A stretch of 64,000 bases of DNA from Arenimonas fontis (GTDB taxonomy: Bacteria > Pseudomonadota > Gammaproteobacteria > Xanthomonadales > Xanthomonadaceae). Below are positions 2,349 to 59,383 of this stretch, one piece after another. How positions within the stretch are numbered: position 1 is the stretch's first letter; the number at the start of each line of letters is the position of its first letter. The notes beneath the pieces are model-generated. The model was not told the DNA's origin. It saw only the letters and a program-made list of their open reading frames with translations, and ran no database searches. The stretch is from assembly GCF_008386465.1 (NCBI RefSeq), contig NZ_VUOD01000003.1, positions 1 through 64,000 on the forward strand, written 5' to 3'. The translations under genes were made by a program, and so were the position numbers.

Positions 2349-5300
2349 TGACCGGCTCCATGCCCAGCATCTCGAACACGTTCCGCATCAGTTCGACTTC
2401 CTGGTAGGGCTTGCCCAGGTAGCGGTTGACGCCGATGTCGAAGGCGCGCTGGCGGTGCTTCTCGCCGGTGCGCGAGGTGATCATGATGATCGGCACGTCC
2501 TTCAGGCGGGCATCCGAGCGCATGTTCTGGGCCAGCTCGTAGCCGTCCATGCGCGGCATCTCGATGTCCAGCAGCATCAGGTCCGGAATGCGCTCGGCCA
2601 TCTTCTCGATGGCATCCACGCCGTCCTTGGCGGTCATGACCTCGAAATTGTGGCGTTCGAGCACACGGCCGGTGACCTTGCGCATGGTGATCGAATCGTC
2701 CACCACCATCACCACCGGCACGCGCCGCGCCGCCGGCGCCGCGACCGGGGCGGCTTCGGCCTTCTCGCGCTCCAGGCTGGCCTGACGCCGCACCAGCGGC
2801 GCCACGTCCAGGATGACCACCACCCGGCCGTCGCCCATGATGGTGGCGCCGAAGATGCCCGGAATCGAGTTGACCTGCGGGCCGACCGGCTTGACGACGA
2901 TTTCCCGGCTGCCCAGCACCTGGTCCACGCAGATGGCGGCACGCAGGTCGCCGGAACGGGCCAGCAGCAGGGGCATCTGCAGGCTGTCCTGGGCCTTGGC
3001 CGGGGCATGGCCGATCAGCCGGCCCAGGTCGTGGATGGCATAGGACTCGCCGGCGTAGGTGAAGCTCGGGTTCTCGCCGGCCAGCTGCTTCTCCAGCTCG
3101 GCCCGGCCGATGCGGCCGACGCCCTGCACCGAGGCAATCGGCACCGCGAAGCTGGTGTCGCCGATCTTGACGAACACCGCCTGGGTCACCGCCAGGGTGA
3201 ACGGCAGGCGGATGGTGAAGACCGTACCCTTGCCGGCCTGCGACTCGATGCCGAGCGTACCGCCGAGCTGGCGGATCTCGGCGTAGACCACGTCCATGCC
3301 GACGCCGCGGCCGGCGAGCCGACTGACCGAGGCGGCAGTGGAGAAGCCGGACTCGAGGATGTAGCCGTACAGCGTCTGGTCGGTGACCTCGGCGCCGGCC
3401 TTGAGCAGGCCGCGCTCGATGGCCTTCCTGCGGATCGCCTCCTTGTCCAGGCCGCGGCCGTCATCGCTGATGCGCAACACCACTTCCGAACCTTCGCGCA
3501 GCACCTGGATCCGGACCGTGCCCTCCTCGGGCTTGCCGGCCTTGCGCCGCTCGGCCGGTGCCTCCAGTCCATGCGCGACCGCATTGCGCAGCATGTGCTC
3601 CAGCGGTGCGGTCATGCGATCCAGGACGTTGCGGTCCATTTCGCCGCTGGCGCCGTCCACCTTGAGGTTGACCTGCTTGCGGGTCTCGCTGCCGGCCTGG
3701 CGCAGCACGCGGCGCAGACGCGGCACCAGCGCGTCGAAGGGCACCATGCGCGTACGCATGAGGCCTTCCTGCAGGTCGGAGCTGACCCGCGACTGCTGCA
3801 GCAGCAGGGTTTCGTACTGGCGGACCAGGTCCTCGAGCGAGCCCTGCAGGCTGGCCAGGTCGGCCGCCGACTCGGCCAGCGAACGCGACAGCTGCTGCTG
3901 GGTGGTGAACCGGTCCAGCTCGAGCGGGTCGAACTCCTCGTTGCCCTGCTCGCCCTCGCGCTGGTAACGGGCGATGATCTGCGCCTCGGTCTCGATGTCG
4001 AGCTTGCGGACCTGCTCGCGCAGGCGGGTGGTCAGCTGGCCCAACTCGCCGAGGTTGCCGCGGAAGGCGCCGAGCTGCTGCTCGAGGCGGGCGCGGTAAA
4101 TGGCGACTTCGCCGGCGTAGTTGACCAGGCGGTCGAGCAGATCGGCACGGATGCGCACCTGCTCCTGCGGCGCGCGCACGCCGGCGCCCTCCTCTTCCTC
4201 GCCGAGGTCCTCGATCGGCGCCGAGAGCGGGGTCAGGCCGGTCGTCGAAGGCACCGGCCGGACCACCGGCGTCTCGACCGAGGGGGCCGCCGGCACCGGC
4301 CTGGGCTCGGCTGGCTTTTCCGCAGCCTTTGCCGGTCCGGTCGCAGGCGCCGGCACTGCCGGCTCGGGAATGGAGTCGAGCGGTTGCCCCTTGGCCAGTG
4401 CGTCTATCCGGGCGATCAGCCGCGCCGGCAGGCCGATGGCGCGACGCTGACCGACCCGAGTGACCATGCCATGCAGGCGATCGAAGGCGTGCTCGAGCAC
4501 GCTGACGCCGGTCGGGTCGAGCTGACGCCGGCCCTCGGCCACGGCCTCCAGCAACGACTCCATGGCGTGGCCCAGCTCGCCGACGGCAAAAATGCCGGCC
4601 ATGCGGGCACCGCCCTTGAGGGTATGCAGGTCACGCTGCAGGGCAACGATGCGCTCGAGATCAGCAGGGGCGTCACGCAGGCCCGCCAGCAGCCCGTCGG
4701 AGTGATCGAGCAGGTCCGCGGACTCTTCCAGGAAAATGTCCAGCAGATCCTCGTCGATGTCGGCGGTGTCCAGCGGCGCGTCCGGATCGGCAGGGTCCTG
4801 GGCATCGTCGGCCATGGCCGGCAGGGATTCCTCGAGCCCGAGGTCGGCCTCCTCGGCTTCGGCGGCGGCGGCTTCGGCGGCGGCGGCTTCGGCGGCGGCG
4901 GCTTCGGCGGCCGCGGCTTCGGCAGCCGCGGCTTCGGCGGCGGCAGCTTCGGCGGCGGCAGCTTCGGCGGCAGCGGCTTCGGCGGCAGCGGCAGCGGCAG
5001 CGGCTTCGGCGGCAGCGGCTTCGGCGGCAGCGGCTTCGGCGGCGGCGGCTTCGGCGGCCGCGGCTTTGGCAGCCGCGGCTTCGGCAGCGGCGGCTTCGGC
5101 GGCAGCGGCTTCGGCGGCAGCGGCTTCGGCGGCGGCAGCTTCGGCGGCGGCAGCTTCGGCGGCGGCAGCTTCGGCAGCGGCAGCTTCGGCAGCGGCAGCT
5201 TCGGCAGCGGCGGCTTCGGCGGCAGCGGCTTCGGCGGCAGCGGCTTCGGCGGCAGCGGCTTGCATGGCCGCCTCGGCAGCCGCCATCTCGTCCGCGGAAA

Positions 5301-46185: not shown

Positions 46186-47292
46186 ATGAATCCGATCATC
46201 CGACTCTCCGCTCTCACCCTGTCCCTGGGTCTCGGCCTGGGCCTGGCCGCTTGCGGCAGCCTCCGGGACCCTTCCTCCAAGCCCCTGCCCAAGGTCTTCG
46301 GTGCCACTGCGGTGGCGGTACCCGAGGGCTTCGTCACCGCGCCCCGGCCCGGCGACGAAATCGATTCGGTGGCGCTCTGGCGCCGGCCCGACGGCGGCAG
46401 CTGGGTGATCGCCACCGCCAAGAAAAGCCATACCCTGGTGGTCTACGACGGTGACGACGGCTCGCTGGTGAAGGTGGTGGGACGACGCGGCCGCGGCGTC
46501 GGCGAATACGAGCGACCCAACGGCATCGCCGTGCACGACGATCTGGTGTTCGTGGTCGAGCGCGACAACCACCGGGTGCAGGTGCAGCGCCTGCCGGACT
46601 TCGCGCCGGTGGCGATCATCGGCCGGGAGCAGCTGCGCAGTCCCTACGGCCTCTGGCTCAACCCGCTGCCGGACGGCCGGCTGGAAATGCTGGTGACCGA
46701 CAGCTTCATGGCCGACTACCGCACCGAAACCCTGCCGCCCCTGCACGAGCTGGACCAACGGGTGAAGCGCTACCAGCTGGATCCGCGCGCCGACGGGCTG
46801 GCGCCGGAATACCTGGGCCATTTCGGCGATACCACCGAGGCCGGCGCGCTGCGCATGGTCGAATCCATCGCCGGCGATCCGCTGCACGACCGGCTGCTGA
46901 TCGCCGAGGAAGACCTGCGCGTGGGCACCACCCTGCGGGTGTACGACCTGGCCGGCCGCTACAGCGGCCGCGACATCCCGTCCGAGCGCTTCACCGCCCA
47001 GGCCGAGGGCGTGGCGCTGTGGGCCTGCCCGGACGGCCGCGGTTATTGGATCGCCACCGACCAGAATTCCGATCTCACCGTCTTCCACGTGTTCGACCGG
47101 CGCGAGCTGGGCTACCTGGGCAGCTTCACCGGCCGGGACGTGGCCATGACCGACGGCATCTGGCTGCACCAGGCCGGAACCCGCGCCTTCCCGGACGGCG
47201 TGCTGTACGCCGCCCACAACGACGAGGGCGTGGCTGCCTTCGACTGGCGCGAAATCGCCCGGGCACTCGACCTGTCGCCGCGCTGCCGCTGA
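46186..47292 (+). CDS. Second phytase-like (beta-propeller) lipoprotein
   Basis: A 368-residue lipoprotein closely related to the product at 41595-42752: lipobox GLAACGSL, then DSVALWRRPDGGSWVIATAK, LVVYDGDDGS, RPNGIAVHDD, VVERDNHRVQVQ, LLIAEEDLRVGTTLRVY, VALWACPDGRGYWIATDQ and TDGIWLHQAG. It would release phosphate from phytate or a similar ester at the cell surface. The start at 46186 is 8 nt after CATACT, without a ribosome binding site. No Pho box is apparent, so it may be regulated differently from its paralogue. The TGA stop is the first TGA of the downstream repeat array. Confidence 0.87.
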   Translation: MNPIIRLSALTLSLGLGLGLAACGSLRDPSSKPLPKVFGATAVAVPEGFVTAPRPGDEIDSVALWRRPDGGSWVIATAKKSHTLVVYDGDDGSLVKVVGRRGRGVGEYERPNGIAVHDDLVFVVERDNHRVQVQRLPDFAPVAIIGREQLRSPYGLWLNPLPDGRLEMLVTDSFMADYRTETLPPLHELDQRVKRYQLDPRADGLAPEYLGHFGDTTEAGALRMVESIAGDPLHDRLLIAEEDLRVGTTLRVYDLAGRYSGRDIPSERFTAQAEGVALWACPDGRGYWIATDQNSDLTVFHVFDRRELGYLGSFTGRDVAMTDGIWLHQAGTRAFPDGVLYAAHNDEGVAAFDWREIARALDLSPRCR

Positions 47293-47353
47293 TCTGACCC
47301 TTTGATCTGACCCTTTGATCTGACCCTTTGATCTGACCCCTTGATCTGACCCC
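47291..47353 (+). repeat. Left repeat array of the RAYT unit (five 13-bp copies)
   Basis: Copies begin at 47291, 47304, 47317, 47330 and 47343; the fourth has CTT and the last CC in place of the TTT spacer. After it comes CCAAGGGGG rather than the inverted tip seen in solo arrays. Confidence 0.95.
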
Positions 47354-47449
47354 AAGGGGGAAAGGCTGACCTTGGCGTCAGGTTGATGACGATCGCCGGA
47401 AATCAGTTCGGTCCGGACACTGGCCCGGACCGGAACCGGAGATCCGCCA

Positions 47450-48112
47450 ATGGCCAGGCCCACCAGGTTCACGCTGCCCGGGTTGCCACATCACATCGTC
47501 CAGCGCGCCCATCGCCGCGAGCCCTGCTTCTTCGAGGACGCCGACCGCGAGTGCTACCTCTGCCTGCTGCGCGAGCATGCGGAAAAGCAGGATTGCCAGA
47601 TCCACGCCTACGTGCTGATGACCAACCATGTCCACCTGCTGGTCACACCACGGCAGGAAGGCGGGGTGGGCAAGATGATGCAGGGCATTGGCCGTACTTT
47701 CGTCCGCAAGATCAATGCGCGCCTGGAGCGGAACGGCACCCTGTGGGAGGGGCGATACCGGGCCTGCATCGTCGGGGACGAGCGCTACCTGCTGGCCTGC
47801 TACCGCTACATCGAGCTCAATCCCGTGCGGGCCGGCATGGTGCAAGCGCCTGGCCAGTACCGGTGGTCGAGCTATCGCGGCAATGCCCTGGGGCAGCCGG
47901 ACCCCCTTCTGAGCCCGCATGCCGCCTTCCTCGCCCTGGGCACGGAGGCGATGGCCCGACGGAAGGCCTACCAAGCCCTGGTTCGGGAACAGATTCCGCA
48001 CCAGCACCTGGAGCGCATCCGCCGCCACATCCGTACCCAGAGGCCGCTGGATCATGGCGGGCGAAGCGACCCTGCGGCTCCGGACCCGCAGGGCTCGCGG
48101 CCACGGGGCTGA
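47450..48112 (+). CDS. REP-associated tyrosine transposase (RAYT, Y1/IS200-like)
   Basis: A 220-residue single-strand DNA transposase of the Y1 HUH superfamily. It begins [17 protein letters not shown], typical of RAYTs. It has the metal-binding HUH pair in TNHVHLLV (His 60 and 62), the [22 protein letters not shown] segment (split here across residues 84-104), and the probable nucleophile Tyr in [14 protein letters not shown] (near 120). The C-terminal part is intact, ending in a short basic/Pro-rich tail. RAYTs act on short palindromic repeats elsewhere in their genome. The flanking GATCTGACCC arrays are the likely substrate. ATG 47450 lacks a clear ribosome binding site. Confidence 0.92.
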
Positions 48113-48182
48113 ATCGCGCCGGCTTGAGCCGGGCCAGCCGGTTGGTGGGGCGTGTGTGGCACTCAGCGGTGCCGGCGGTGGC

Positions 48183-48219
48183 GGGGTCAGAACAAAGGGT
48201 CAGAACAAAGGGTCAGATC
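48183..48219 (-). repeat. Right inverted end of the RAYT unit
   Basis: Three motif copies in the opposite orientation to the left array, spaced 13 bp: GGGTCAGAAC, AAAGGGTCAGAAC, AAAGGGTCAGATC. Its reverse complement is the same sequence as the solo repeat at 58615-58651 apart from the first base. Confidence 0.95.
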
Positions 48220-48264
48220 GGGGGTGGGCGCCGGTTTTCGCCAGCGGGGGTAGAGTCTTCGCCC

Positions 48265-49041
48265 ATGGGCCGACATCCGCAGGCGGTACGCATCGATGCC
48301 GCCGGACCATCGCCGGCGGGCGAGCCCCGCCCGCTCCGCCGCCGCCGATGGCTGCGGCGGCTGCTGATGCTGCCGGTCTGGTTCGTGCTGCTGACGCTGC
48401 TGCAGGTATTGCCGTTGCGCTGGATCGACCCGCCCACCAGCGCTTTCATGTTGGCGCGCCAGCTCGAGGGCATCGGCGACGAGGGTTTCCGGCTGCGCCA
48501 GCAGTGGCGCGACTGGGAGGAGATTTCGCCGCAGTTGCCCATTGCCCTGGTGGCGGCCGAGGACCAGAAGTTTCCGGAGCATCGCGGCTTCGACCTCGAG
48601 GCCATAGATCGCGCCCTCGAGCACAACGCCCGCGGCGGCCGCCTGCGTGGCGGCAGCACCATCAGCCAGCAGGTGGCCAAGAACCTGTACCTGTGGAAGG
48701 GCGGCGGCTATTTCCGCAAGGCGCTGGAGGCCTGGTACACGCTGCTGATCGAGCTGACCTGGCCGAAGCGGCGCATTCTGGAGGTGTACGCCAACATCGC
48801 CGAATTCGGCGACGGCATCTACGGCGCCGAGGCCGCGGCCCAGGCCTTCTTCGGCAAGCCGGCCCGTGCGCTTACCGCTGCCGAGAGCGCCCGGCTGGCG
48901 GCGGTGCTGCCCAATCCACGCCGTTACGACGCCGCCCGCCCCGGGCCCTATGTGCAGCGGCGGGCGCGCTGGATCCAAGCCCAGGTTCGGCAGTTGGGCG
49001 GCCCGGCCTACCTGGAGGGCGAATCGTCGGCAGGCGGCTGA
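48265..49041 (+). CDS. mtgA: Monofunctional peptidoglycan transglycosylase
   Basis: A 258-residue GT51 enzyme that polymerises glycan strands from lipid II at the inner membrane. A basic N-terminal leader precedes one membrane helix (about 34-52). Catalytic motifs are [16 protein letters not shown] (first Glu), [44 protein letters not shown] (second Glu), and [14 protein letters not shown]-like [15 protein letters not shown]. There is no transpeptidase domain. TAGAGT ends 8 nt before the ATG with no ribosome binding site. The gene follows the RAYT unit directly, so its promoter must lie in the 45 bp after the right inverted end. Confidence 0.95.
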
Positions 49042-49103
49042 GGTGGACGGCGGTTCGGCAAGGCGACGGGCGTCAGCCGGATCGCCCGGTTAGACTTCGC
49101 GCC

Positions 49104-50066
49104 ATGCCGCGTACCGAATTACTGACCGTCGTCATCGCCGCCCACAACGAGGAGGCGGCGCTTCCCCTGTTGCATCCGCGCCTGATGAAGGTGCTCGATG
49201 GCCTGGACCTGGAGGCGAGCGTCCTCTATGTGGACGACGGCAGCCGCGACGGCACCTGGGAACTGCTTCGTTCCTTCGCCGACGCCGACCCGCGGGTCGG
49301 CGTGCTCCGGCTGGCGCGCAATTTCGGCAAGGAGGCGGCCCTGACCGCCGGGCTCGACCAGGTGGACGCCGATGCCGCCGTCGTGCTCGATGCCGACGGC
49401 CAGGATCCGCCGGAGCTGATCCCGGAACTGGTGGCGCGCTGGCGCGAGGGCTGGGAGGTGGTGTACGGAACCCGGATGAGTCGGGACGGCGAGAGTTGGC
49501 TCAAGCGGTTCACCGCGGCGGCGTTCTACCGGGTGATGGACCGCCTGTCGGATACCGCGGTGCCGCGCGATACCGGCGATTTTCGCCTGATGTCGCGACC
49601 GGTGCTCGAGGCGCTGCGGCAGCTGCGCGAGCGGCAGCGGTTCATGAAAGGCCTGTTCGCCTGGGTCGGTTTCCGCCAGCTGGCGTTTCCATACGCGCGC
49701 GAGCCGCGCCTGGCGGGCGGCAGCAAGTTCAACTACTGGCGGCTGTGGAATCTGGCCCTGGAGGGAATCACCAGTTTCTCCACCGTGCCGCTGCGCCTGG
49801 CCACCTACGTGGGCGTGCTGACGGCGCTGCTGGCCTTCGTGTGGGGGCTGTGGATCGTGGTCCGCACGCTTGCCTGGGGCGATCCGGTGCAGGGCTGGCC
49901 GACCATGATGACGGTGATCCTGTTCCTGGGCGGCCTGCAGCTGGTGGCGCTGGGCATCATCGGCGAATATCTGGGGCGGCTGTATCTGGAGGCCAAGCAG
50001 CGCCCGCTCTACCTGGTGGCGGAAATGCGGCTGCCGGCGCAGGCCAACCCCCTTCCCCACGTCTGA
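49104..50066 (+). CDS. Polyprenyl-phosphate glycosyltransferase (GT2, GtrB/ArnC-like)
   Basis: A 320-residue family-2 glycosyltransferase that attaches a sugar to undecaprenyl phosphate on the inner membrane. The GT-A domain shows VVIAAHNEEAALPLLHPRL, YVDDGSRDGTWELL, RNFGKEAALTAGLD, VVLDADGQDPPELIP and the DTGDFRLMSRPV loop. Two C-terminal membrane helices follow (about 228-252 and 264-288). Donor sugar is unknown. TAGACT ends 7 nt before the ATG with no ribosome binding site. The gene lies after mtgA and before a CBS protein, with no other envelope glycosyltransferases nearby. Confidence 0.9.
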   Translation: MPRTELLTVVIAAHNEEAALPLLHPRLMKVLDGLDLEASVLYVDDGSRDGTWELLRSFADADPRVGVLRLARNFGKEAALTAGLDQVDADAAVVLDADGQDPPELIPELVARWREGWEVVYGTRMSRDGESWLKRFTAAAFYRVMDRLSDTAVPRDTGDFRLMSRPVLEALRQLRERQRFMKGLFAWVGFRQLAFPYAREPRLAGGSKFNYWRLWNLALEGITSFSTVPLRLATYVGVLTALLAFVWGLWIVVRTLAWGDPVQGWPTMMTVILFLGGLQLVALGIIGEYLGRLYLEAKQRPLYLVAEMRLPAQANPLPHV

Positions 50067-50142
50067 AGCCCGGGGCCTGGCGACAGGTGCAGGCGTCGCC
50101 GGTCGGGTCTATGATCGGCGCAGGTTCGGCGGAGGGCAGGAC

Positions 50143-50571
50143 ATGCGCAACGTGAACCAGATACTCCAGGCCAAGGGTGGGCGGCTGGTGACCGTACCGC
50201 AGGAAGCGCCGGTGCTGGAGGTGATCCGGCTGATGGCCGAGAACCACATCGGCAGCGTGCTGGTGATGCAGGGCGAAGAACTGGTGGGCATCGCCACCGA
50301 GCGCGACTACGCCCGCAAGGTGATCCTGCAGGGCCGTTCATCGGCGGACACGCCGGTGGCGCAGATCATGACCCGCCAAGTGGTGACCGTATCGCCCACC
50401 GACACAGCGCAGACCTGCATGGAGCTGATGACCAACCGGCGTATCCGGCATCTGCCGGTGGTGGAGAACGGCCGGGTGCTGGGCATCGTCTCCATCGGCG
50501 ATCTGGTCAAGGCGGTCATCGAGGACCAGCAGGAAGAAATCGCCCAGCTGCAGCAGTACATCACCAGCTGA
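50143..50571 (+). CDS. CBS-domain pair protein
   Basis: A 142-residue protein made almost only of two CBS motifs (VTVPQEAPVLEVIRLMAENHIGSVLV and VTVSPTDTAQTCMELMTNRRIRHLPVVE, each given here in shortened form: VPQEAPVLEVIRLM and VSPTDTAQTCMELM). Such Bateman modules bind adenine nucleotides; solo versions are common and poorly characterised. A conventional leader is seen: TATGAT near 50110 and GGAGGGCAGGAC before the ATG. A 13-bp repeat array starts 14 bp after its stop. Confidence 0.9.
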   Translation: MRNVNQILQAKGGRLVTVPQEAPVLEVIRLMAENHIGSVLVMQGEELVGIATERDYARKVILQGRSSADTPVAQIMTRQVVTVSPTDTAQTCMELMTNRRIRHLPVVENGRVLGIVSIGDLVKAVIEDQQEEIAQLQQYITS

Positions 50572-50585
50572 GCGCCGCCTGAGCT

Positions 50586-50711
50586 GATCTGACCCTTTGA
50601 TCTGACCCTTTGATCTGACCCTTTGATCTGACCCTTTGATCTGACCCTTTGATCTGACCCTTTGATCTGACCCTTTGATCTGACCCCAGGGTCGCAACAA
50701 AGGGTCAGATC
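50586..50711 (+). repeat. 13-bp tandem array with inverted tip (downstream of prfC)
   Basis: Eight GATCTGACCC copies at 13-bp spacing begin at 50586. The last is followed by CAGGGTCGCAACAAAGGGTCAGATC, the inverted tip, ending at 50711. The tip supplies the prfC stop codon (minus strand TGA at 50705-50707). The final 36 bases match those of the array at 52380-52492. Confidence 0.95.
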
Positions 50712-52312
50712 AAGGGGCCGAGGGATTGGGCGTGTTCGCGGGTGGCGGCGAACTCGAGGTCCGGCCAGCGCTCCATGGTCAGCTGCAGGTTCACCCGGGT
50801 CGGCGCCAGGTACACCAGCTGGCCGGCGGCGTCCAGGGCAAGGTTCGTGGCATTCTTTTCACGGAATTCCTCCAGCTTCTTCGGCGTGCCGCCTTTTACC
50901 CAGCGTGCCGTCGCCACCTGCACCGGCTCGAAGCTGGCGTCCACCCCGTACTCGTCCTTGAGCCGGTAGGCCACCACGTCGAACTGCAGCATGCCGACCG
51001 CGCCCAGGACCAGGTCGTTGCTCATCAGTGGCCGGAAGAACTGGGTCGCGCCTTCCTCGGAAAGCTGCGCCAGGCCCTTCTGCAGCTGCTTGAGCTTGAG
51101 CGGGTCGCGCAGCCGGGCGCGCCGGAACAGTTCGGGGGCGAAGTTCGGGATGCCGGTGAAGAACAGCGGTTCGCCGGCGCTGAAGGTATCGCCGATGGAA
51201 ATCGTGCCGTGGTTGTGCAGGCCGATCACGTCGCCCGGCCAGGCCGCCTCGGCGATCTCGCGGTCGGAGGCCATGAAGGTGAGCGCGTTGGCCAGCTTCA
51301 CCTCCTTGCCGGTGCGCACATGCAAGGCCTTCATGCCGCTTTCGTAGCGGCCCGAGCAGATCCGCAGGAAGGCCACCCGGTCACGATGCTGCGGGTCCAT
51401 GTTGGCCTGGATCTTGAACACGAACCCCGAGAAGTTTTCCTCTTCCGGCATGACCTCGCGGGTGGTGGTGGCACGCGGGCGTGGCGCCGGTGCGTGTTCG
51501 ACGAAGAAGTCCAGCAGCGGCTGTACGCCGAAGTTGTTGACAGCCGAACCGAAGAAGACAGGCGTTTGCCTGCCGGCCAGGTAGGCGGCCTTGTCGAAGG
51601 GATGCGAGGCGCCTTGCACCAGCTCCAGCTCGTCGCGCAGGTCCGCCAGCATCTGCGCGCCGATGCGCTTCTCCAGCTCCGGGTCGTCCAGCGAGGCGAA
51701 GATGGTGCTGTCCTGACGGGTGAAATTGCGCCCGCTTTCGTATAGGTGCACTTCGCCGCTGAGTAGATGCACCACGCCCTTGAGTCGCTGGCCCATGCCG
51801 ATCGGCCAGGTCACCGGCGCGCACTGGATGCCGAGCACGCGCTCGATCTCGTCCAGCAGCTCGATCGGCTCCTTGCCTTCGCGGTCGAGCTTGTTGATGA
51901 AGGTCATGATGGGGGTGTCGCGCATGCGGCAGACCTCCATCAGCTTGATGGTGCGCTCCTCGACGCCCTTGGCGACGTCGATCACCATCAGCGCGCTGTC
52001 CACGGCGGTGAGCACGCGGTAGGTGTCCTCGCCGAAGTCGGCGTGGCCCGGCGTGTCCAGCAGATTGACGATGCGGCCCTCATAGGGGAACTGCATCACC
52101 GAGGAAGTGACCGAGATGCCGCGCTCCTTCTCCAGCGCCATCCAGTCCGAGGTGGCGTGCCGCGCCGCCTTGCGGCCTTTGACCGAGCCGGCCATCTGGA
52201 TGGCGCCGCCGAACAGCAGCAGCTTCTCGGTCAGGGTGGTCTTGCCGGCGTCGGGATGCGAGATGATCGCGAAGGTGCGCCGGCGATGGGTTTCGCGCAG
52301 GTGCTCGGACAT
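50705..52312 (-). CDS. prfC: Peptide chain release factor 3
   Basis: A 535-residue translational GTPase that recycles RF1/RF2 from ribosomes. GTPase motifs are [14 protein letters not shown] (G1), TSSVMQF (G2), [11 protein letters not shown] (G3) and INKLDREG (G4), followed by the RF3-specific region to about 530. The protein ends in SLGPLI, and its TGA comes from the repeat tip at 50702-50711, so the original C-terminus may have been replaced by a few residues. It is flanked on both sides by like-oriented 13-bp arrays. The promoter side array (52380-52492) lies about 70 bp upstream of the ATG. Confidence 0.97.
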
Positions 52313-52379
52313 GGGTGGGCCGCGGTCGGGCCGCGACGGTTGCGAGAAGGGGCGCGGATTATACGTCCCCTCGACCCCT

Positions 52380-52492
52380 GTTCTGACCCTTTGATCTGAC
52401 CCTTTGATCTGACCCTTTGATCTGACCCTTTGATCTGACCCTTTGATCTGACCCTTTGATCTGACCCCAGGGTCGCAACAAAGGGTCAGATC
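52380..52492 (+). repeat. 13-bp tandem array with inverted tip between prfC and hslO
   Basis: Seven copies begin at 52380; the first is GTTCTGACCC and the rest GATCTGACCC. They end in the same CAGGGTCGCAACAAAGGGTCAGATC tip as the array at 50586-50711. It occupies most of the intergenic space between the divergent prfC and hslO genes, so both promoters must lie at its edges. Confidence 0.95.
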
Positions 52493-53439: not shown

Positions 53440-53600
53440 CTCCCGCCCCCGATCCCGACCCCGATCCCGACTCCGACCCCGATCTCGACCCTGATCCCGG
53501 CCCCGCCCCGGCCCCGCCCCGGCCCCGACCCCGGCCCCGACCCCGGCCCCGACCCCGGCCCCGATCCCGGCCCCAATCCCGCCCCCGGAACCCGGTCCTA
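53440..53600. repeat. Hexanucleotide-rich CCCCGA/CCCCGG tract
   Basis: About 160 bp of imperfect 6-bp repeats (CCCCGA, TCCCGA, CCCCGG variants) just after hslO. It is open in several frames (Asp-Pro/Arg-Pro repeats on plus, Gly/Arg on minus) purely because of its composition. The strand bias is strong: the plus strand is nearly G-poor C-rich. Confidence 0.9.

Positions 53601-58614: not shown

Positions 58615-58621
<7 letters not shown>
57623..58621 (+). CDS. amgK: N-acetylmuramate/N-acetylglucosamine kinase
   Basis: A 332-residue aminoglycoside-phosphotransferase-fold kinase that phosphorylates the anomeric C1 of MurNAc (and GlcNAc) in peptidoglycan recycling. It has FRSYWRAR near the start, VLMEDLGDR, the catalytic loop VFVHRDYHSRNLLV and IVDFQDAVRGPITYDLVSLL. 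CATACT ends 6 nt before the ATG, with no ribosome binding site. The stop TGA and the final Ile codon come from a GATCTGACCC-type repeat (58615-58651). It is followed by murU, its pathway partner. Confidence 0.94.

Positions 58622-59383
<762 letters not shown>

Follow-up and report, generated by a model that had tools for sequence, protein, structure and literature searches.

Tandem arrays of a 13-bp unit are scattered through the genome of Arenimonas fontis, and two of them enclose its only RAYT gene. These arrays are probably terminal repeats of a RAYT family of the TIRYT type that have been amplified in tandem, with slippage-like growth acting locally on ends that the RAYT had dispersed. They are best read in this way because the motifs of the RAYT protein are those of TnpAREP subclass 2.1, because related RAYT loci have GGGTCAG ends and because solitary palindromes are found. 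They look like multiplied copies of the family's own end sequence, and as a minisatellite they would be an unusual variety of a short mobile repeat whose kind is already known. The amplified form is real, and among the genomes of the family that were searched it is seen in this species alone.

The stretch of DNA analysed (the window) comprises the first 64,000 nucleotides of contig NZ_VUOD01000003.1 (assembly GCF_008386465.1). It contains an intact RAYT gene at 47450-48112 on the + strand, which encodes a Y1/HUH transposase of 220 amino acids. To the left of the gene, at 47291-47353 (+), lie five GATCTGACCC units with a 13-bp period, starting at 47291, 47304, 47317, 47330 and 47343, the last two of which end in CCCC. 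The ORF upstream takes the end of its stop codon (47290-47292) from the first GA of this array. To the right, at 48183-48219 (-), are three inverted units whose cores begin at 48184, 48197 and 48210. A preliminary description of this layout had both the coordinates and the counts correct.

In general, most units of an array are GATCTGACCCTTT (137 copies counted); the run ends in CTGACCC, and some arrays continue with up to three inverted units. Elsewhere in the window, all on the + strand, there are solitary arrays of ten units followed by two inverted ones that form a hairpin (1-152, cut by the contig end), of eight units and two inverted ones (50586-50711) and of seven units and two inverted ones (52380-52492), the first inverted unit being degenerate in the latter two, as well as a short array of three units of AAT/GTT type, without an inverted arm, at 58615-58651. 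Allowing up to two mismatches, the window contains 34 matches to the unit, compared with a mean of 0.57 and a largest value of 3 in shuffled sequence. A CRISPR was ruled out, as the units have no spacers between them. The window also holds a 15-bp repeat, CGGCTTCGGCGGCGG, in about 27 copies at 4854-5261, which is perhaps a coding repeat, and a 12-bp repeat, CCCGACCCCGGC, in about 12 copies at 53442-53587, directly past the Hsp33 gene.

The RAYT protein scores 58.8 bits against the Pfam model PF01797 (Y1_Tnp) and 85.2 bits against the NCBIfam model REP_Tyr_transpos, passing its cut-off of 80. Its enzyme superfamily is shared with IS200/IS605, and such an insertion sequence was considered and rejected, given a score of 28.8 bits against transpos_IS200, below the cut-off of 55, and a single Y1_Tnp match, the RAYT itself, in the 2.63-Mb genome. 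The motifs NHVH, WE (within WEGRY) and YIELNP are found at residues 59, 99 and 120, and among 24 aligned RAYTs NHVH is present in 23, WEGR in 23 and YIELNP in 22. TIRYTs are described with a C-terminal extension resembling a helix-turn-helix; the protein of the window has a C-terminal tail, and no HTH model of Pfam matched it at E <= 0.1. A PHROGs search returned one weak transposase match, and no sequence relative with a solved structure was found at E <= 0.01.

In Table 1 of Quentin 2018, the combination NHVH / WE / YIELNP is listed for TnpAREP subclass 2.1, for which the REP column reads "no" (PMC6006769). This subclass corresponds to Bertels group 1 and probably to the TIRYTs of Di Nocera 2013, which are associated with GGGG[AT][CG]A[CG] inverted repeats (PMC6006769). 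The RAYT of the window carries the motifs of this subclass. The preliminary description had suggested a REPIN-like family; REPs and REPINs of the GTAG type are the wrong parent, since what TIRYTs are known to be associated with is terminal inverted repeats rather than GTAG REPs. The GATCTGACCCTTT unit and its complement lack GT[AG]G, and so contain neither the GTAG nor the GTGG tetranucleotide that stands at the foot of the hairpin in GTAG families.

Across the whole genome, which the preliminary description had proposed to search, there are 24 clusters with 193 exact cores, amounting to about 20 arrays, and one RAYT. The exact unit dimer occurs 131 times (98 + 33), with none for the reversed control, and loose triples also occur 131 times (37 + 94); the pieces of sequence examined cover all dimers and triples. 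The clusters were catalogued from these, and one isolated unit or pair outside the triples was seen, at C1:4258. Eight clusters lie at contig ends, and each is perfectly periodic over exactly 127 bp, which we infer to reflect an assembler k-mer limit of 127. The copy numbers given earlier for the arrays at 58615 (3), 52380 (7), 50586 (8) and position 1 (at least 10) are borne out. In the last case the units are indeed present, but the lower bound is a limit of the assembly, since eight contig ends stop after exactly 127 periodic bp. By their flanks, these eight clusters are four outer and four inner halves, and they probably make up four arrays, each with some 10 units or more; the total is then about 20 arrays, at about 19 sites. 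The unit has a resemblance to the 13-mer of oriC, which was set aside, the arrays being present at about 20 sites.

Comparison with one genome per species across the family upholds the link between the arrays and the RAYT, as the RAYTs of this subgroup in most relatives have the core of the arrays at their ends. Of 28 RAYT loci in relatives, 20 are flanked by GGGTCAG to the left and CTGACCC to the right and a further 6 by one of the two, such that the core is terminal on at least one side in 26 of 28; the loci with neither are L039 and L049. Solitary palindromes of the form GGGGTCAG-N10..40-CTGACCCC are present in 51 of 198 family genomes, including that of A. fontis (which has 2), with a maximum of 63 per genome, while the reversed control gave 1 each in 6 genomes. 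They are commoner in genomes with a close RAYT match at E <= 1e-40 (32/62 versus 19/136; Fisher p 6e-8, a test that ignores shared ancestry). Of the 21 genomes with at least three palindromes, 6 have no RAYT match as close as E <= 1e-40, and in three of the 6 there is none at E <= 1e-10 either. Genomes G098, G163 and G179 hold 21-28 GGGGTCAG palindromes each without a close RAYT match; a reading offered for these is that the transposase may have been lost or has diverged.

The exact dimer array, in contrast to the palindromes, is absent from the 197 other family genomes, eight congeners included. A RAYT match at E <= 1e-10 is found in 90 of the 198 genomes, that of A. fontis among them, and the 197 without arrays thus divide into 89 with and 108 without a RAYT. 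The preliminary description would have been refuted by arrays equally common in related genomes that have no RAYT of this subgroup, and the search of the family did not refute it in this way. In G582 (the MAG of L154), however, arrays with the same core and inverted arms are present and a RAYT at E <= 1e-6 was not found.

The structure of the arrays bears signs of both dispersal and local growth. The three solitary window arrays that were folded each have at their end a strong hairpin, of -19.5 to -24.0 kcal/mol (z -6.9, -6.4 and -8.8; none of 200 shuffles as good), whereas the RAYT flanks, folded alone, are weak, at -2.0 kcal/mol (z -5.5) and -0.9 kcal/mol (z -1.6). This corrects the earlier statement that the arrays stand in place of classic REP palindromes: the strong hairpins at solitary arrays mean that palindromes are not absent from the family. 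A hairpin with the core in its loop at every end was dropped as a general rule, the difference from re-paired flanks being marginal (mean stem 3.14 versus 2.87; 22 of 500 re-pairings as high). A degenerate inner arm, CAGGGTCGCAACAAAGGGTCA, is common to the loci at 50586, 52380 and C27:248657, and the sharing of this derived arm by three loci indicates that copies were dispersed.

Where an array mixes units of the GTT and GAT types, each type is grouped in contiguous blocks, an order with a joint chance probability of 1.6e-5 in a post hoc test of seven hand-entered arrays against random order. Arms can also differ in their units: in L300, a solitary GGGTCAG element at 1342-1590 in G426, a genome of another gammaproteobacterial family, five 28-bp units in one arm stand against five exact 18-bp units (plus a degenerate one) in the other. 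Taken together, the blocks and the arms with different units favour local duplication, by slippage or unequal exchange. Growth by slippage or by repeated end transfer had been proposed from the outset; the signs of local growth agree with this, but the two models are not separated, as slippage and RAYT action leave similar patterns, and the blocks and independent arms favour a slippage-like process.

End transfer would mean that the RAYT itself builds the arrays, cutting at each core and rejoining the end to a neighbouring core, with one unit added per event, so that the enzyme rather than slippage would determine array length. This appears unlikely, even though reiterated ends with unrelated units recur beside RAYTs, a recurrence that speaks equally for amplified terminal repeats. 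Tandem exact 11-mers are found within 300 bp of the gene at 8 of 29 RAYT loci, the window included (7 of 28 in relatives), compared with 2, 3 and 1 of 29 at control distances of 400, 800 and 1100 bp; the 29 gene bodies contain none. Among the eight loci with reiteration, five have just two copies, L039 and L050 have three and the window has five, while the controls never have more than two. At L039 (genome G166; 1351-1430 and 2183-2290) the RAYT ends are of another core, GGTGACAGGTAC, reiterated three times on the left and four on the right with a 29-bp period, and at L113 successive copies of the end are cut at different inner lengths. In G426, a RAYT (Y1_Tnp, 44.5 bits) at L292, 663-1610, lies between two GGGGTCAG units and five inverted ones of 22 bp. 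At L185 (1892-3466), on the contig of an Acidobacteria MAG, a Y1_Tnp gene has three 13-bp GGGTCAGACTCCG units just upstream and seven inverted units farther downstream, at the contig end. Here a 3-keto-disaccharide hydrolase gene stands between the RAYT and the right array, which weakens the case that the whole layout of the window is repeated at L185; L177 and L190, from the same MAG, also hold the GGGTCAGACTCCG unit.

Set against serial end transfer are the contiguous GTT/GAT blocks, which look like the product of slippage or unequal exchange, the arrays of G582 and the variation in period, with values of 13, 18, 19, 20, 22, 28 and 29 bp. This variation led us to reject a fixed 13-bp mechanism, and 13 bp does not stand as a general feature, as had been suggested, since the reiterated units of relatives range from 13 to 29 bp. 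A self-complementary arm, GATC or CCGG, was considered as a candidate cause of the 13-bp period and is not claimed here. A scan of genome contigs found at least 108 stretches, with a RAYT match in 2 of the 108 listed (L185 and L205); the scan was limited to a 13-bp period and hence provides no argument for a fixed 13-bp mechanism. The listed stretches were not accepted as one kind, as most look by eye like unrelated repeats. In a class-level search, loose GGGTCAGA triples were found in 6 of 369 genomes, that of A. fontis included, with 0 for the reversed control, and in one of the six, G265, the match has the look of a repeat within coding sequence. In viral contigs, GGGTCAGA at a 13-bp period was not found. 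A broader proposal, that RAYTs of the TIRYT branch are minisatellite builders, which would add units one by one through repeated cutting and joining at GGGTCAG-type cores, independently in several lineages, with the variable-number arrays driving local inversions, is similarly doubtful.

That the RAYT gene happened to land in an ordinary minisatellite with which it has no connection is improbable. The arrangement at the gene itself might suggest this: the RAYT is bounded by CTGACCCC and GGGGTCAG as an inverted pair, with CTGACCC on the left and GGGTCAG on the right, the reverse of the order seen in relatives and in G426, and only 2 of the 24 clusters flank the RAYT. Because of this opposite order, the arrays need not be the RAYT's own transposon ends. 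A degenerate end of canonical appearance, GGCGTCAGGTTGATG, lies at 47374-47388, between the left array and the gene; a clear right-hand partner for it was not seen at this RAYT. A chance insertion is nevertheless hard to reconcile with the identity of array core and terminal core in all but two of the relatives' loci, with the inverted inner arm shared by several arrays, which slippage alone does not produce, and with the recurrence in G426 of a RAYT between inverted arrays.

In the surroundings of prfC, the arrays may have had consequences for gene order. The array at 50586-50711 lies between the convergent CBS-domain and prfC genes, the stop codon of prfC being formed by a TCA inside an inverted unit, and that at 52380-52492 lies between the start of prfC and Hsp33. 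The genus is represented by 27 genomes, of which 22, that of A. fontis among them, gave a prfC locus, and no array was seen beside the gene in the available parts of 21 congener loci, some of which are incomplete. Other elements occur there: a GGGTCAG palindrome upstream of prfC at L128, a very short one upstream at L130 and, downstream at L134, a solitary palindrome resembling the ends of the RAYT (L043) of the same genome. In 9 of the 21 loci, prfC is preceded by an SMP30-like gene (Pfam: phytase/NHL) in the same direction, and in 9 of 21 it is convergent with the CBS gene; four loci have both arrangements, with GT beyond CBS. In the window, the SMP30-like gene is followed by the RAYT between its arrays, then by mtgA, GT and CBS, all reading forward, an array, prfC in the opposite direction, a further array and Hsp33, again forward. 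This order fits an inversion of the stretch from prfC to GT and mtgA (47291-52492) relative to the congeners. Arrays lie at both breakpoints of the putative inversion (47291-48219 and 52380-52492), with a third inside it (50586-50711), and we infer that the arrays may have caused it.

The arrays might also be kept for a host role at gene ends, as sources of stop codons, as hairpins at the 3' ends of mRNAs or as iterons that bind protein. In 11 of 24 clusters the array does run over the stop predicted (by crude GC3-based gene calls) for an adjacent ORF, and three solitary arrays fold strongly, but such a role is very improbable given the absence of arrays from eight congeners (dimer search) and from the available prfC sites of 21, and given that REPs supplying stop codons are already known from GTAG families (PMC3733652).

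Among known systems, the TIRYTs and TIRtrons are closest, sharing the Y1 transposase motifs and a TIR motif, GGGGWSAS, that fits GGGGTCAG (PMC3733652, PMC6006769). For some species, Di Nocera 2013 describes repeated TIR families, moderately abundant, with many members in dimers or clusters (PMC3733652); the genome of A. fontis likewise has its 24 clusters. The available text of these two papers leaves open how the repeats spread (PMC6006769, PMC3733652). In A. fontis, unlike these, the ends are long arrays of 13-bp units at about 20 sites, in opposite order at the gene. GTAG REPs and REPINs are likewise short palindromes, putatively mobilized by RAYTs, which in Pseudomonas form ordered tandem clusters, also beside RAYTs (Bertels and Rainey 2011, PMC3116915), and the solitary arrays resemble them as dispersed, imperfect palindromes able to form hairpins. 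The repeated unit of those clusters is a whole REP or REPIN with its flanks, spaced at 184 bp for one kind (PMC3116915), whereas in the window it is half an element, 13 bp long and without GTAG. BrickBuilt of Porphyromonas gingivalis, a MITE built on a 23-nt minisatellite, is similarly a dispersed intergenic element of one genus with direct tandem repeats and inverted-repeat ends (PMC4596501). Its IS5-type ends are, however, distinct from the repeat (PMC4596501), whereas in the window the repeat is the end itself and the enzyme is a Y1 RAYT. Among titles and the beginnings of abstracts in the open-licence literature, no paper was found describing an end core amplified into dispersed arrays around one RAYT.

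If the arrays are amplified terminal repeats, the single RAYT would cut the core on single-stranded DNA, now or in the recent past, and would spread short elements in trans, in the manner of REPINs or MITEs. Replication slippage or unequal recombination, perhaps with help from hairpins or from RAYT nicks, would then lengthen or shorten, locally, any site that holds two or more units. As inverted units are shared between sites, the arrays may in addition act as points of recombination, for example at the breakpoints of the inversion proposed for the window.

The end core of subclass 2.1 has now been seen in two forms: 51 of the 198 genomes searched have it in solitary palindromes, and one has it in amplified arrays. 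For A. fontis, the arrays explain eight broken contig ends in the assembly and suggest how a local inversion could have come about. They also give a natural readout in their length, their unit blocks and the asymmetry of their arms, which may be compared between strains and with strains lacking the RAYT.
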